NCBI GenBank assembly: GCA_030601745.1
Contig: JAUWBI010000008.1
Coordinates: 1-64,000 of the forward strand
Origin: Phycisphaerae bacterium
GTDB taxonomy: Bacteria > Planctomycetota > Phycisphaerae > Sedimentisphaerales > Anaerobacaceae
Length of the DNA: 64,000 bases
Reading direction: 5' to 3'
In this document: piece after piece, positions 7,705 to 13,782 of the stretch
How positions within the stretch are numbered: position 1 is the stretch's first letter
How the letters are laid out: every line of letters starts with the position of its first letter
Notes under the pieces: model-generated
Databases searched by the model: none
The model's input: only the letters and a program-made list of their open reading frames with translations
Told to the model about the DNA's origin: nothing
Translations under genes and position numbers: made by a program

Positions 7705-7804
7705 ACTAAAACAACTGACTTTGTTTTCCCTTGCTTGGCTACTTAAAAGCGAATAGAATTGTTTTGTTATGTCAGGTCTGTTTTTGTGTGTGAGAAAAGC
7801 TAAT

Positions 7805-9991
7805 ATGAGAAAAATAACCTTTCTGTTTACCTGCTTACTACTAATCGTTTCTCATAGTGCCACTACAAAAGCCGACGAAGGTCTTGTCGAATTAGCCAAG
7901 AAGGTTAGGCCAGCGGTTGTTCTCATAGAAACCTTCGATAAAGATAACAACCCAGTAGGACAAGGTAGCGGATTTTTCATAAATGACAAAGGCCATCTGA
8001 TTACAAACCATCATGTAATCGAAGGGGCAGATTCCGCAACTGTCAAAATTACAAGCGGAGAGATATATTTAGTCCAAGGTATTATTGCTGTTGATGAGAA
8101 CTCAGATGTCGTAAAACTGCAGGTCAATACCAAGAGTGCGAAAACTTCTTTCTTGCCAGTTTCCGAAAAAATACCATCTGTAGGCGAGGACATTGTGGTT
8201 GTTGGCAATCCTTTTGGCCTCGAGTCCACTGTTTCTAAAGGCATTGTATCGGCTATTCGCCCAATTCCTAACTTCGGTAATATCATCCAGATATCAGCGC
8301 CCATATCAGCCGGGTCAAGCGGCAGTCCTGTCCTTAACGTAAAAGGTGAAGTTATCGGTGTTGCCACCTTCATTCTGATAGAAGGGCAGGCTCTGAATTT
8401 TGCCGTGCCAAGTAAAAAGATTATAGATTTAGAGACATACGAAACAATTCAGCAGTTTTCTCAATATCTTCAAATCCTGAAAAAGAAAAGATCTGACGAA
8501 GCTAAGAAACAACTCACTGCTGCCCAAAAAGAAATCTTGCAGAAAGCAGAAGCAGGTGACAGTAATGCCATGTGCGAACTTGGCGAGATGTACCACAGAG
8601 GAACATGGGGTTTTGAAAGAGATTATACAAAGGCTATAGAATGGTATTTAAAGTCCGCTGAAGCTGGGAATAGTGCTGCTATGCTTGGTCTTGCGGAAAT
8701 GTATGGCGAGGGAACGGGAGTTACTGAAAATTGGGCTAAAGCAATAGAGTGGACAGAAAAAGCTGTGGGGGCAGGCAACATTGATGCCATGCTTGACCTT
8801 GGACGAGCATACCTGTTCGGAAAAGTTGTACCCAAGAATGTTGCAAAAGCCTTGGAATTACTGCGTAGGGCTGCTGAAGCTGGTAGTGATGTTGCAATGC
8901 TTGAGTTAGGTACAATATATTATCGTGGCGAAGAAGTTAAACAAAATTGCACCAAAGCTTTTGAGTGGGTTAGTAAAGCTGCAGATAAGGGAGATGATAG
9001 GAGCGCTAAGTTCTTTTTAGCTCTCTTATACCATGAAGGTTGTGGTGTTGCAAGAGATGATGCTAAGGCCTTAGAATGGATTCGGAAAGCAAGACCAAGA
9101 CCCTCGGAGAGCATGGTTTTGCTTTTTTTTCTGGAATATTTGCGTGAGCCTGAGCTGGTAAGTCGGGATAATGTAGTCGATTTATGTGTTATGGCTGCCA
9201 ATGCGGGCGACAGTGGGGCCATGCTGTGGCTTGGCAATCATTTTGAACTTTACGCTAAAGATATCAGAAAAGCTTTGGAGTGGTATCAAAAGGGCGCGGC
9301 AGCAGGAGATGCTACTTGCATGTTTTGCCTTGGTGAGATTTATAAAAAAGGTGTGGGCGTTGAAAAAGATTACCTAAAGTCTGTAGAGTGGTTCCGTAAA
9401 GCTGCCGAAGCAGGTCACAACGGTGGCATGTTAGAACTCGCGTTGGCATACAAGAAAGGGAGAGATTACACAAATGCTGTAGCGTGGTTCCGGAAAGCCG
9501 CAAAGGCAGGAAACTACGAAGCTATGTTTTATCTCGGACGTGCATACAGCGAAGGCGAGGGTGTCGCTAAAGATGTCGCCAAAGCTATTGAATGGTACAC
9601 TAAAGCAGCAGAAAAAGGTGAAGTGACTTCCATGCTTAATATCGGTTCGTTGTTTCTTAAAGGCGAAGGTATTGCTCAAGACCATAAGAAGGCTTTCGAG
9701 TGGTTTCATAAAGGTGCTGAGGCAGGGAGTGTTGAAGCCATGACGAGTCTTGGAGTAATGTACTATGAAGGCAAGGGTGTTGACGAAGACAAGGTAAAGT
9801 CTGTGGAATTGTGGCGCAAAGCGGCGGCAGCAGACAATTGTACAGCTATCTGCCTCCTTGGGGTGGCTTATGAGTATGGCCACGGTGTCACTAAAGACCA
9901 TTGGCAAGCTGTAAGGCTATACCAAAGGGCAGCAAGGCTTGGGGATGAAGACGCGAAGAAAAAGCTTGTCACGCTCGGTGAAACATGGTAA
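7805..9991 (+). CDS. Exported HtrA-like serine protease fused to Sel1 repeats
   Basis: The ATG at 7805 is preferred to the ORF-track start because it begins a clean signal peptide (MRKITFLFTCLLLIVSHSATTKA). Residues ~25-215 form a trypsin-like S1C (HtrA/DegP) domain: His in TNHHVIEG, Asp in ENSDVVKLQV, Ser in SAGSSGSPV. No PDZ domain follows. The rest, ~240-728, is about 13 Sel1-like repeats (AxxWYxKAAEAGxxxAMxxLG), a solenoid that usually binds proteins. The likely role is a periplasmic protease or scaffold recruited to envelope partners. The fusion is uncommon. The gene is bracketed by two PEP-CTERM tail remnants. Domains are confident, targets unknown. Confidence 0.85.
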   Translation: MRKITFLFTCLLLIVSHSATTKADEGLVELAKKVRPAVVLIETFDKDNNPVGQGSGFFINDKGHLITNHHVIEGADSATVKITSGEIYLVQGIIAVDENSDVVKLQVNTKSAKTSFLPVSEKIPSVGEDIVVVGNPFGLESTVSKGIVSAIRPIPNFGNIIQISAPISAGSSGSPVLNVKGEVIGVATFILIEGQALNFAVPSKKIIDLETYETIQQFSQYLQILKKKRSDEAKKQLTAAQKEILQKAEAGDSNAMCELGEMYHRGTWGFERDYTKAIEWYLKSAEAGNSAAMLGLAEMYGEGTGVTENWAKAIEWTEKAVGAGNIDAMLDLGRAYLFGKVVPKNVAKALELLRRAAEAGSDVAMLELGTIYYRGEEVKQNCTKAFEWVSKAADKGDDRSAKFFLALLYHEGCGVARDDAKALEWIRKARPRPSESMVLLFFLEYLREPELVSRDNVVDLCVMAANAGDSGAMLWLGNHFELYAKDIRKALEWYQKGAAAGDATCMFCLGEIYKKGVGVEKDYLKSVEWFRKAAEAGHNGGMLELALAYKKGRDYTNAVAWFRKAAKAGNYEAMFYLGRAYSEGEGVAKDVAKAIEWYTKAAEKGEVTSMLNIGSLFLKGEGIAQDHKKAFEWFHKGAEAGSVEAMTSLGVMYYEGKGVDEDKVKSVELWRKAAAADNCTAICLLGVAYEYGHGVTKDHWQAVRLYQRAARLGDEDAKKKLVTLGETW

Positions 9992-10053
9992 CTGGCTAAG
10001 TAACAAGCCGAGTACAGGCAGTCTTTTGAAAAATAGCCCAAACCAACCACGCT

Positions 10054-10094
10054 CTTACTGCTCGGCTTTGGTGTGGTGATGCTGAGAAAAAAAC
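10054..10094 (+). pseudogene. PEP-CTERM tail remnant (copy 2)
   Basis: One frame reads PTTLLLLGFGVVMLRKKRLT then a stop, an excellent match to a PEP-CTERM anchor (EPxT, hydrophobic span, RKK tail). A TAG lies only two codons upstream of the first Pro, so no gene body is attached. It is the decayed end of a sorted surface protein, similar to copy 1 at 7664. Confidence 0.6.
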
Positions 10095-10096
10095 GC

Positions 10097-10124
10097 TTGA
10101 CTTAATCAGCAAAATAGGTATAAT
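10097..10124 (+). promoter_or_regulatory. Consensus-like sigma-70 promoter
   Basis: TTGACT (10097-10102), a 16-base spacer, and a perfect TATAAT (10119-10124). Transcription would start near 10131 and run into the hairpin module that follows. Confidence 0.6.
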
Positions 10125-10130
10125 AAAAAA

Positions 10131-10225
10131 GTGTATTTTTTTATCCTTTCAAAAAGACCCCTGCTGAGGGTTACGCATTTCCCTCGCCTCCTGGAACCGG
10201 AAAACGCAAGCAGGGGCTTTTTATT
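10131..10225 (+). ncRNA. Candidate small structured RNA (or terminator)
   Basis: About 20 bases after the predicted start there is a closed structure. The outer stem CCCCTGCT (10158-10165) pairs with AGCAGGGG (10209-10216) and is extended by AAAAAG/CTTTTT. Inside it is a hairpin GAGGG(10-base loop)CCCTC at 10166-10185 and a purine-rich second half (TGGAACCGGAAAACGCA). The stem ends in CTTTTT, so the module terminates itself. No protein frame is evident. I could not match it to a known riboswitch or RNA family. The simpler alternative is an unusually large terminator for the HtrA-Sel1 gene. Confidence 0.45.
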
Positions 10226-10288
10226 GAATCGCCTCAAGAAAAGCGCTGTTCTGCCTAAAAACTTGACTAAAACCGGCTGTTTTCTTCC

Positions 10289-10317
10289 TTGATTTTGCAG
10301 GTTAGCCCGGATATAAT
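10289..10317 (+). promoter_or_regulatory. Promoter of the exported unknown gene
   Basis: TTGATT (10289-10294), a 17-base spacer and TATAAT (10312-10317). It would give a leader of about 185 bases before the ATG at 10510. Confidence 0.55.
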
Positions 10318-10320
10318 TGT

Positions 10321-10509
10321 ATCACCTTAATTAACTTTACCAGAGACTGGAGGTTGGTGATAAATGAGACTTTATAATATGAATTCCGCGAAATTTTATG
10401 AGGCGATAACGGTGCGCACAGTGTGCACCGTGAAATATTAACAGTTCCCTGCTGGAGTTTATCCCGCACAAGGATGCGGGGCAGGGACAAGTTTGAAAGG
10501 AGAAAAGCA
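10321..10509 (+). promoter_or_regulatory. Structured 5' leader of the 10510 gene
   Basis: Three hairpins occupy the leader: ATCACC/GGTGAT around 10321-10363; GGTGCGCACA/TGTGCACC at 10411-10429; and a two-tier hairpin with outer stem TCCCTGC/GCAGGGA (10446-10452 with 10481-10487) and inner stem CCCGC/GCGGG (10463-10467 with 10476-10480). The last ends 10 bases before the GAAAGGAG ribosome site, so refolding could change its access. No known riboswitch was recognised. Confidence 0.4.
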
Positions 10510-11103
10510 ATGAACGAACGAAGAACTGCAAAAGTGAAGGTGAGCTTGGGAAAGACCGTGTTTTTAATGACAGCCATCCTCATCATTTGGAGCGGCTCGG
10601 CAGCAGCTCAGCAAAGCCTCCGTGACCTTGCGAAAGAATACGGGTCTGACTGGTTGGCTGGCCGATGGACTGCCACAACCGACAACGGTACAAAGATCCT
10701 GTTAGTGTACAGGTGGGAACTTAACGGACATCTCTTGACTGCTGATTTCAAGATGGGTGAGTATGCCTCCCGCGGCATGATCTTTTACGTGCCGGGCGAG
10801 GAAAAGGCCACCGAGGTGGGCATTGACAACAGAGGTGGCAGGACCAAGGGAACATGGGAAGCGCAGGATGGCAAGCTTGTCTCGAAAAGGGAGCATGTTG
10901 ATGCTGAGGGCAATGTACGAAAGAGTGCTACCGTCTATACGAAAGTGGATGCTAAGACGATAAAAATCGCACTCTATGGCCTGGACCAGGACGGTGAGCT
11001 TGCTGATGAGCCGTGGTTCACCATGGACTTCAAGCGCAAAGCCGGCAAGACCAGTAAGAAAACAGATAAGCCCGCTGGTGAATCCCAAAAGAAATCCAAC
11101 TGA
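10510..11103 (+). CDS. Exported protein of unknown function
   Basis: 197 residues from the ATG at 10510, which has a good ribosome site (GAAAGGAG); the ORF-track start lies inside the leader hairpins. There is a signal peptide of about 38 residues ending near SGSAAAQQ. The mature part looks like a small beta-rich domain: WLAGRWTATTDNGTKILLVYRW, GHLLTADFKMG, GTWEAQDGKLVSKREHVD, VYTKVDAKTIKIALYG. The end is a Lys-rich disordered tail (KTSKKTDKPAGESQKKSN). The domain resembles exported 'lipocalin-like' unknowns of Planctomycetota, but I cannot name a family. It has its own promoter and structured leader. Confidence 0.7.
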   Translation: MNERRTAKVKVSLGKTVFLMTAILIIWSGSAAAQQSLRDLAKEYGSDWLAGRWTATTDNGTKILLVYRWELNGHLLTADFKMGEYASRGMIFYVPGEEKATEVGIDNRGGRTKGTWEAQDGKLVSKREHVDAEGNVRKSATVYTKVDAKTIKIALYGLDQDGELADEPWFTMDFKRKAGKTSKKTDKPAGESQKKSN

Positions 11104-11104
11104 C

Positions 11105-11281
11105 AACTACTACGGGCAGTGCGATGTGCCTGAGATATACAGATTTGGTGGCCTTGCAGCCGGAGGCATCCACAGCCTTGGTCTTGTTATATGCACGGGG
11201 CGACTGATAATGGATTTTAATAATGATTGCTTTGTCGATTTTGGTAATTTTGCTCTCTTTGGTGACCAGTGGTTGCAGTGA
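11105..11281 (+). pseudogene. Orphan dockerin-like tail
   Basis: Just after the exported unknown, in another frame, the sequence reads MDFNNDCFVDFGNFALFGDQWLQ and then a stop. This matches the calcium-loop dockerin-like repeat of the LamG protein at 1-1246 and the beta-helix protein at 61920. No body is attached, so it is the leftover end of a lost surface protein or the product of a frameshift in the upstream gene. Confidence 0.5.
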
Positions 11282-11359
11282 GGCAAGTAGTCCTTTCGAC
11301 ACGGGGTGCCGTTGGTAATGAGTTAGCAAATAACGCCCGGCGGAGCCGGGGGCTAAACA

Positions 11360-11690
11360 TAATTGAGATTGCCGCGCATCGCTTCGCGATGCTCGCAATG
11401 ACAATTTTCAAATAGATGGCTCGAATACTGCCCGTATGATTGGCAGCTAAAATGAGAGTATTTGTTTACCGCTGAGAACGCTCCCCGTTTCCACGGGGAC
11501 AGGCGAGAGCGCAGGGAGGATAGACGACGGACGACAGACGACGGAGGACAGAGGACGGAGGGCAGAGGACGGAGGGCAGAGGGCGGACGACAGATGACAG
11601 AGGACGGAGGAGGGACGAGGGACGAAAGACGAGGGAGGACAGAGGACGGAGGGCAGAGGGCGGATAGTGAATATCGAATATCGAATATCG
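11360..11690. repeat. Repeat-rich spacer with a purine-rich degenerate tandem array
   Basis: It contains a palindrome of the 'ATTGCGAG' type (GCATCGCTTCGCGATGCTCG), then a GGACGGAGG/GGACAGAGG array of about 150 bases (11515-11665), then three copies of ATATCGA. The minus-strand ORFs here (SSVLCPPSSAL...) are low-complexity artefacts. No gene is seen. Confidence 0.75.
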
Positions 11691-11751
11691 AACAAGGAAT
11701 GGGGAAGTGGAAGAACGGTGGACAGTGAGGGGAAATAAGGTAAGTGTGAAA

Positions 11752-13782
11752 ATGGTAGCTTATACAATCAGAGATTTGCAGAGAGTTTTGTGGGTTGGTG
11801 TGATAAGCATTGCGGCGCTCTGGGCTGGAGTAAGCGCCGGGGAAGAGCAGAAGCCGCCGTGGGAAGGTCAGTACAAAATCCGGGCGCACGAGAAGGAGCG
11901 CCTTACGGCGGCTGATGTGGTCGGGCCGGATGGTCTGGTATATCCGAACTGGACCCGGTGCGGTGTGCAGGGCGGGATTGGCCGCGTGAAAATCTTCGCA
12001 AGCATCGAGGACTTCGGCGGCAAAGCAAACGATAATCTGGACGATTCGGTCGCGCTCGATAAGGCGTGTCGAGCAGCAGGTAAAAATGGAGGCGGGGCCG
12101 TGGTGTTAGGCGCAGGGACGTATTATCTGGACTGGCCGGTGACGGTGCGCCATAACAACGTGGTCATTCGAGGACGAGGCAGTAACAAAACGAGATTGAT
12201 TTTCCGCTATGCGATACCGAAGAACGGCGTAGGTTTCTATACGCTGAAACCCGGCAGTCGCGTTGGTAAGAATACGCGGATAGAAATACACTGTCGGCCT
12301 GGCGGACTTATGAAAATGACGATTATGGCGGACGACGCTGTGATTCAAAGATGGCAGCGCAGTATGCACTCCGGCAATACGTTTGCCTGCGCTGCGAGGG
12401 GCCGGGATGTCATCAGCAAAGTCGGTGACGGTGAGCACACGCTCAAGGGTATTGCGGAGTATAAGGACGGCAGCAAGCTGACAGGTGAGATTAAGGTCGT
12501 GGTGGATTCATCCCGCCCCTCCGAGGGGTTGGATTCATCCCGCCCCTCCGAGGGGCTGGATTCATCCTTCATTGACAGACGCCCCGTCCCGAGCAGACAA
12601 GGTGCCATCACCTTCGAGGGACGGGGATGGACGGGGAGGAAAATCAAACTGGCGCGTGACGGCAAACGTGGTGACCTGACACTTACGCTGGAAAACGCAA
12701 AAGGACTGAGGGTGGGCGACTGCCTTTACATTGAAGGCCCGGCCACGGCTCGCTGGAAGAAACTTACGAAGAACGCCTGCCTGTGGGGTGCGTATCGCTG
12801 CTATGAGGTTATCATCAAGAAGGTCGAAGGCAATACCATTACTATTAATCAGCCGCTTCGCATTGAATTTCCGGTTATCGATGGTTCCTTTGTGCAGAAA
12901 ATCGTGCCGATACAACGCTGCGGGATTGAGGACTTATATATAGAGCAGACTGAAAATCTGTGGATAAGCAGCGTGATGTTCTATCATGCGTGGAACTGCT
13001 GGGCGCGTGGTGTTACGGTGAAGATGTGCGGTCGGTTTCCGGTGTACGGCAGTATGGCAAAGTGGTGCGAGATTCGCGATTGTATCTTCGACGACGCCTG
13101 GTTCAAGGGCGGGGGCGGGACGGCATATACGGGCTGGGACAGATGCTGGGACTGCCTCATCGAGAATGTCGAGACGTTCAAGATGCGGCATGGGCCTCTG
13201 TTTCAGTGGGGGGCCAGCGGTAACGTGATTCGCAAGAGCGTCTTTCACGAGAGCGACGCCCAATGGCACTCGGGATGGACGAACGAGAACCTGATGGAGC
13301 AGTGCGTCATCACGTCGGTAAGGGGTCACGGCGGGTATGGGTTCGGTATGTGGGCTTCGCCGCCGGAGGACAAGGCGCACGGTCCGAACGGCCCGCGCAA
13401 CGTGGTTTACAACTGTGACGTCAGCTCAGAGAAGGCGGGAGTGTGGATGGGCGGGATGAACGAAAACTGGCTGATTGTTTACAGCCGTTTTGTGGTCGAG
13501 CGTGGCCAGGGGGTGTTCGCTAAAACGGCGAGCTTCGACCACGTTATCAAGGACAATGTTTTCGTGCTCAAGGACAAGTTGTCGCCGATGGTATTTCTGG
13601 CTTCTGCGGACTGCATTGGGGTGGAGATAATCGGCAACCGTCTGTACGGGGGGAATGGAAGGATTTCCGCCGGCAGAGGTAAGCCGGGGCGGGTCGAAGG
13701 GAACCGGGCGCTGCCGCTTGGTGAGGCGCCAAAACCGAGACCTGCGGTGCCGTCGATTTACGAGTGGCAAAAGGCACGGTAA
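11752..13782 (+). CDS. Exported right-handed beta-helix (pectate-lyase-3-like) protein
   Basis: 676 residues from the ATG at 11752, which starts a signal peptide (RVLWVGVISIAALWAGVSAG). Residues ~75-150 carry the pectate-lyase-3 entry motif (FGGKANDNLDDSVALDKACRA, GGGAVVLGAGTYYLDWPV, RGRGSNKTRLIF). The C-terminal ~350 residues are beta-helix turns with Asn/Cys ladders (NLMEQCVITSV, NVVYNCDVSSEKAG). It probably binds or cleaves an acidic polysaccharide. Between the two parts a 27-base unit is repeated in frame (RPSEGLDSS twice); it belongs to a palindrome family spread over the window. No dockerin or PEP-CTERM tail is present. Confidence 0.82.
   Translation: MVAYTIRDLQRVLWVGVISIAALWAGVSAGEEQKPPWEGQYKIRAHEKERLTAADVVGPDGLVYPNWTRCGVQGGIGRVKIFASIEDFGGKANDNLDDSVALDKACRAAGKNGGGAVVLGAGTYYLDWPVTVRHNNVVIRGRGSNKTRLIFRYAIPKNGVGFYTLKPGSRVGKNTRIEIHCRPGGLMKMTIMADDAVIQRWQRSMHSGNTFACAARGRDVISKVGDGEHTLKGIAEYKDGSKLTGEIKVVVDSSRPSEGLDSSRPSEGLDSSFIDRRPVPSRQGAITFEGRGWTGRKIKLARDGKRGDLTLTLENAKGLRVGDCLYIEGPATARWKKLTKNACLWGAYRCYEVIIKKVEGNTITINQPLRIEFPVIDGSFVQKIVPIQRCGIEDLYIEQTENLWISSVMFYHAWNCWARGVTVKMCGRFPVYGSMAKWCEIRDCIFDDAWFKGGGGTAYTGWDRCWDCLIENVETFKMRHGPLFQWGASGNVIRKSVFHESDAQWHSGWTNENLMEQCVITSVRGHGGYGFGMWASPPEDKAHGPNGPRNVVYNCDVSSEKAGVWMGGMNENWLIVYSRFVVERGQGVFAKTASFDHVIKDNVFVLKDKLSPMVFLASADCIGVEIIGNRLYGGNGRISAGRGKPGRVEGNRALPLGEAPKPRPAVPSIYEWQKAR
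12504..12567. repeat. In-frame tandem 27-bp palindromic repeat
   Basis: Two 27-base units at 12504-12530 and 12531-12557, each GGATTCATCC followed by CGCCCCTCCGAGGGG and two or three more bases, then a further GGATTCATCC. Each unit adds nine residues (DSSRPSEGL) to the beta-helix protein without breaking the frame. The palindrome CCCCTCSGAGGGG is family B of the findings. Confidence 0.85.

Follow-up and report, generated by a model that had tools for sequence, protein, structure and literature searches.

A multi-copy family of candidate anti-Shine-Dalgarno small RNAs in a lineage of Phycisphaerae

Anatomy of the module and its flanks

The window, by which we mean the whole stretch of 64,000 nucleotides analysed here, carries a module of promoter, stem-loop and terminator between two genes that run in the same direction as the module (Table 1). 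The first-pass annotation of this DNA had described a near-consensus promoter followed by a branched structure and CTTTTT, and the present analysis agrees on each element. The sequence TTGACT-16-TATAAT (10097-10124) has 11 of 12 matches and is the best sigma70-type site within 8000-13000. Downstream of it, CCCCTGCT (10158-10165) pairs with AGCAGGGG (10209-10216), the stem continues as AAAAAG/CUUUUU past a single bulged A, and CTTTTT (10217-10222) directly follows the 3' arm; the inner GAGGG/CCCTC hairpin accounts for the branched shape. The distance from the end of the -10 element to CCCC is 33 nt. Transcription would probably start about 7 nt past the -10 element, near 10131, and such a start would give a transcript of approximately 92 nt, close to the 90 bases or so suggested earlier.

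Table 1. Features in and around the module, with the basis of each assignment.
Feature	Position	Strand	Basis or remark
Upstream gene, trypsin-like protease with Sel1 repeats	7769-9991		codirectional; ends ~100 bp before promoter
PEP-CTERM-like C-terminal coding relic, PKPTTLLLLGFGVVMLRKKRLT followed by a stop	10037-10105	+	TIGR02595 PEP_CTERM, 16.9 bits (cut-off 16), E 0.0085
-35 element TTGACT	10097-10102	+	promoter scan; TTGAC conserved in close copies
-10 element TATAAT, spacer 16	10119-10124	+	scan; conserved in close copies; family-wide promoter enrichment
5' leader, predicted unpaired	10131-10150	+	sequence and fold
5' arm of terminator stem, AAAAAG-A(bulge)-CCCCUGCU	10151-10165	+	fold; helix covaries in family
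Inner hairpin GAGGG/CCCUC	10166-10185	+	fold; common to closest copies only (C40:2314, genus mate)
Anti-Shine-Dalgarno motif CCUCC	10187-10191	+	CCUCC in 101/113 family loops
3' arm AGCAGGGG and U tract CUUUUU, intrinsic terminator	10209-10222	+	sequence, fold
Segment 3' of terminator, common to close copies, outside predicted RNA	10223-10262	+	alignment of copies
Downstream gene, N-terminal signal-like stretch	10510-11103		codirectional; no Pfam or NCBIfam match

The predicted fold of the window module has an MFE of -28.3 to -28.8 kcal/mol and a z score of about -2.1 to -2.3 relative to dinucleotide shuffles, so that by itself it is just moderately unusual. Intrinsic terminators are rare in the own genome, where a strict scan of 1.1 Mb counted 15 of the short-loop type, so a strong one directly downstream of an 11/12 promoter stands out from the background. 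The first-pass annotation had seen no resemblance to a familiar riboswitch or RNA class; Rfam 15 likewise gave no match for the window at the gathering score, and at relaxed thresholds, up to E 1, eight carrier loci had no relevant Rfam match.

The flanks of the module hold further features. An in-frame stop (10034-10036) precedes the PEP-CTERM-like relic, which ends in TAA at 10103-10105, and the -35 element overlaps the last two codons of the relic and its stop. Short PEP-CTERM-like coding DNA (LLLLGFGAVMLR) occurs at about 20 places in the own genome (G000), often without an intact gene, and it bounds close copies of the module on both sides (e.g., 10037-10105 in the window and 346-392 at locus L028). 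This DNA may have provided a homology block for duplication. On the other side, the leader of the 10510 gene contains the palindrome GGTGCGCACAGTGTGCACC (10413-10431), a possible operator. Just ahead of the ribosome-binding site of the same gene lies a predicted stem CCCUGC/GCAGGG that encloses a CCCGCA/UGCGGG hairpin (10446-10487; MFE -21.6 kcal/mol, z -1.6), which is possibly a leader structure.

A multi-copy family with a covarying stem

The own genome harbours at least six copies of the module: the window copy, two on contig C40, one on C31 and a tandem pair on C25. BLAST with a 156-base query found diverged copies at C40:2314, C31:4633 and C40:141 (the last in two pieces) in the own genome and at G001:C69:7372 in the genus mate. 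In the alignment of the close copies, the promoter including its spacer, the outer stem and the T run are all conserved. Two loop types were recognised, one being GAGGGTTACGCATTTCCCTC-N-CCTCC (window and C40:2314, the genus mate having CCTTC instead) and the other CTTTTTCATCACCGTTCCTCC (C40:141 and C31). Each copy of the C25 tandem pair has a promoter of its own, and the same pair is present in the genus mate. A motif like TACGTAGTCACCACAATAGAC adjoins several copies (flanks of L110, L079, L109, L149 and L179). On some contigs the copies are clustered on a single strand, which raised the possibility of an integron- or array-like origin; this was dropped on account of irregular neighbours and spacings.

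The distribution of the family was assessed in two ways. A pattern blind to the loop, CCCCTGC-N15-45-GCAGGGG-N-TTTT, was run on 61 relatives together with a backwards control; it matched in 11 of the 61, the control gave none, and the C25 tandem pair was among the matches. A covariance model built from 20 hairpins was positive in 95 of 148 relatives at E<=0.01. At E<=1e-5 this model detected the hairpin in 60 of the 89 genomes of the window's own taxonomic family, with a maximum of 25 copies in one genome, and it was positive in 7 of the 59 genomes from the rest of the order. Across a phylum-wide sample, only 7 of 293 other genomes reached E<=1e-5, with one or two weak matches each. The carriers include Phycisphaerae bacterium CSMAG_1255 and CSMAG_2751. 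A literature search found no described RNA family of this lineage, and the family appears to be undescribed both in Rfam 15 and in the literature searched. The window copy is the most deviant member (47.7 bits).

Conservation of the stem pairs in relatives had been set beforehand as a test of the module, and it holds. Among 113 distinct matches, 8 of the 11 stem pairs show changes on both sides, and 95.1% of cells are paired. For example, A-U takes the place of G-C immediately outside CCCC in 14 cells, and at base seven U-A or G-C replaces C-G in another 14 cells. No shuffle reached the observed value on any covariation measure; when the partner was slid by 1-3 columns, pairing fell to 45-67%, and none of these slid controls attained the observed values. 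Fitting the alignment to the model favours the structure; nonetheless, the two-sided changes are plain in the sequences. Conservation of the stem sequence is partly by construction, as the model was seeded with CCCCTGC stems.

Loop motif, promoters and gene neighbourhood

The loops of the family carry the anti-Shine-Dalgarno motif CCTCC far more often than shuffled loops do. It was found in 101 of 113 model matches, compared with 25.4 in shuffled loops (maximum 36), a figure that is partly circular because the model had seen such loops, whereas the 18 of 23 distinct loop-blind matches (shuffled 4.1, maximum 10) are free of this circularity. GGAGG was present in none of the 113 loops. In the model matches the mean predicted unpaired probability of CCTCC is 0.97; in the window copy it is just 0.3-0.6, below most copies, owing to weak local pairing. 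In one subfamily (L087, L089, L060, L096, L111 and others) the loop AUCUCGCUUUUUCCUCUCCCUCCGCA is almost constant across many genera while the stem varies, indicating that this loop is under strong constraint.

Pairing of the loops with gene starts was predicted for 863 crude gene calls, covering 1.1 of the 3.45 Mb of the own genome, against shuffles that keep CCTCC. The best duplexes of the loop shared by C40:141 and C31 were stronger than those of 40/40 such shuffles, and the best site, GGAGGTAACGGTGACAATGAAAAAGAAA, lies at the beginning of a protein whose N terminus is signal-like. For the window and C40:2314 loops, duplexes with the 863 own gene starts were no stronger than those of the shuffles. 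Absolute duplex energies should not be over-read, since gene starts were picked partly by the strength of their Shine-Dalgarno sequence. We also asked of the loops in general whether they are antisense to a Shine-Dalgarno sequence plus start codon; CAT at the right spacing occurred 12 times versus 9.1 in shuffled loops. Given this lack of enrichment, anti-start-codon pairing is noted here for the C40:141/C31 loop alone.

The covariance model did not include promoters, and the 90 nt upstream of each copy were scanned for them. A sigma70 promoter with at least 11 of 12 matches precedes 22.9% of copies, as opposed to 0.1% of shuffled and 0.9% of downstream sequences, and in the copies concerned the -10 element ends 9-27 nt ahead of the start of the match. 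Many copies of other subfamilies lack a recognisable sigma70 promoter. A second group (G027, G078, G019 and others) apparently has instead a GGCAC...TATAG-like box and GGAAGGAGG with a hairpin upstream. Of this kind are other-subfamily copies in G078 and G027 (L112 5046 and 14155; L114 9058), which are found some 220-340 bp downstream of genes that encode a prepilin-type N terminus (FTLIELLVVIA) or the C-terminal end characteristic of it; the purine-rich GGAAGGAGG or GGTGAG upstream of these copies could pair with the loop.

The copies are mostly intergenic: 16 of 107 hairpins fall within ORFs of 120 aa or more, compared with 59% of random positions. That the hairpin in the window is simply the intrinsic terminator of the protease gene, or yields an RNA derived from its 3' UTR, with the promoter match being accidental, would agree with the orientation and closeness of that gene and with the codirectional upstream neighbour of 55 of 79 copies. 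We regard this explanation as unlikely, however, as the upstream gene is divergent in the other 24, and promoters of at least 11/12 are some 200 times commoner than in shuffles and stand at a narrow distance. It also gives no reason for the conservation of the loop, and CCTCC is never found in ordinary long-loop terminators of this genome: 1.1 Mb of it held 19 further terminator-like hairpins with long loops, none of which has the motif.

The window copy might alternatively be a decaying duplicate of a dispersed repeat, the other family members being functional sRNAs. Close copies share both flanks and have PEP-CTERM-like DNA at their bounds, as segmental duplication predicts, and the loop of the window copy is the most altered one and gave no target signal. 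Yet its promoter, stem and T run are intact, and in the wider family promoter, stem and loop motif persist within quite different flanks, so we hold decay to be improbable. A role in cis as the leader of the 10510 gene, be it attenuator or riboswitch, although suggested by a terminator ahead of a codirectional gene, is very improbable: a second promoter-like site intervenes (10289-10317), downstream genes differ between copies, and the division of downstream neighbours into 42 on the same strand and 37 convergent excludes a general cis role.

A stand-alone sRNA is the best reading of the module, as the first-pass annotation had also proposed: it belongs to a family in which the distance to the promoter is narrow, the stem covaries and the motif in the loop is conserved. 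The existence of paralogs and of a lineage-wide family, the anti-Shine-Dalgarno motif and the overlap of the -35 element with the PEP-CTERM-like relic go beyond that annotation.

Proposed function and comparison with known small RNAs

We consider it likely, though well short of certain, that the module encodes a trans-acting anti-Shine-Dalgarno sRNA of about 92 nt, made from a sigma70-type promoter, ended by its own terminator and belonging to a multi-copy family. In the proposed mechanism, the RNA would start at the sigma70-type promoter and stop at its intrinsic terminator, whose stem (CCCCUGC/GCAGGGG) would close a pyrimidine-rich loop bearing CCUCC. Most likely, several mRNAs would be bound by the RNA at their purine-rich ribosome-binding sites, which would block translation of these targets. 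Computation establishes the module and its family, covariation of the stem, enrichment of promoters, and a loop motif exposed in most copies; from these features we infer transcription, mRNA pairing, repression and target identity. A broader idea is more doubtful, namely a translation-control network in which up to 25 paralogous anti-Shine-Dalgarno sRNAs per genome are expressed from at least two promoter types and act independently of Hfq, some of their loops being specialised for the starts of secreted-protein mRNAs. The search for Hfq gave no match in 61 genomes, the own genome included, and detected a match in 5 of 14 control genomes.

RNAs of this kind are already known. The alpha-r14/NfeR1 and cuckoo RNAs (RFMSmelA075/A099) of Rhizobiales are multi-copy and expose the anti-Shine-Dalgarno sequence CCUCCUCCC in loops, while their stems vary (PMC3927594, PMC10746234). 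NfeR1 represses ntrB by covering the ribosome-binding site and is Hfq-independent (PMC10746234). In Listeria monocytogenes, the multi-copy LhrC1-5 RNAs use CU-rich loops to pair with the AG-rich Shine-Dalgarno region and block translation initiation (PMC5880928). What was found here is of the same order: paralogs (6 or more in the own genome, up to 25 in relatives), a promoter and terminator of their own and, in the family, an unpaired anti-Shine-Dalgarno motif. By analogy, this anatomy of own promoter, short RNA, CCUCC in the terminator loop and many copies fits translation repression by Shine-Dalgarno pairing, as in NfeR1 and LhrC.

The resemblance to the alpha-r14/cuckoo RNAs lies in the copy number and in the anti-Shine-Dalgarno motif placed in an exposed loop. 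Those RNAs, however, have several consecutive hairpins, each with a CCUCCUCCC loop, whereas here a single hairpin serves also as the terminator, and the window loop has GCCUCCUGG only. In addition, their stems vary, while the present family has a strongly conserved stem sequence and a CU-rich loop with CCUCC. They also belong to Alphaproteobacteria, whereas the present family is from Phycisphaerae and has no Rfam match of any family; the Rfam searches detected no homology to the alpha-r14/cuckoo RNAs. LhrC1-5 are likewise multi-copy with CU-rich loops, but come from a different phylum, and a genome of the present family can hold about 25 copies; no sequence relation to LhrC was found in searching Rfam as a whole, as distinct from the LhrC model by name. 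On the sequence evidence, the family is a well-supported candidate for a new and lineage-restricted member of this known kind, the multi-copy anti-Shine-Dalgarno sRNA. The PVC group has few known sRNA families: in a 2022 survey, Planctomycetes, Verrucomicrobia and Chlamydiae together account for 8 Rfam sRNAs (PMC9029176). A large multi-copy anti-Shine-Dalgarno family in genomes with no detectable Hfq would offer a natural system for such RNAs without this chaperone and would add one more case, apparently of independent origin, to the multi-copy RNAs built on a CU-rich loop.
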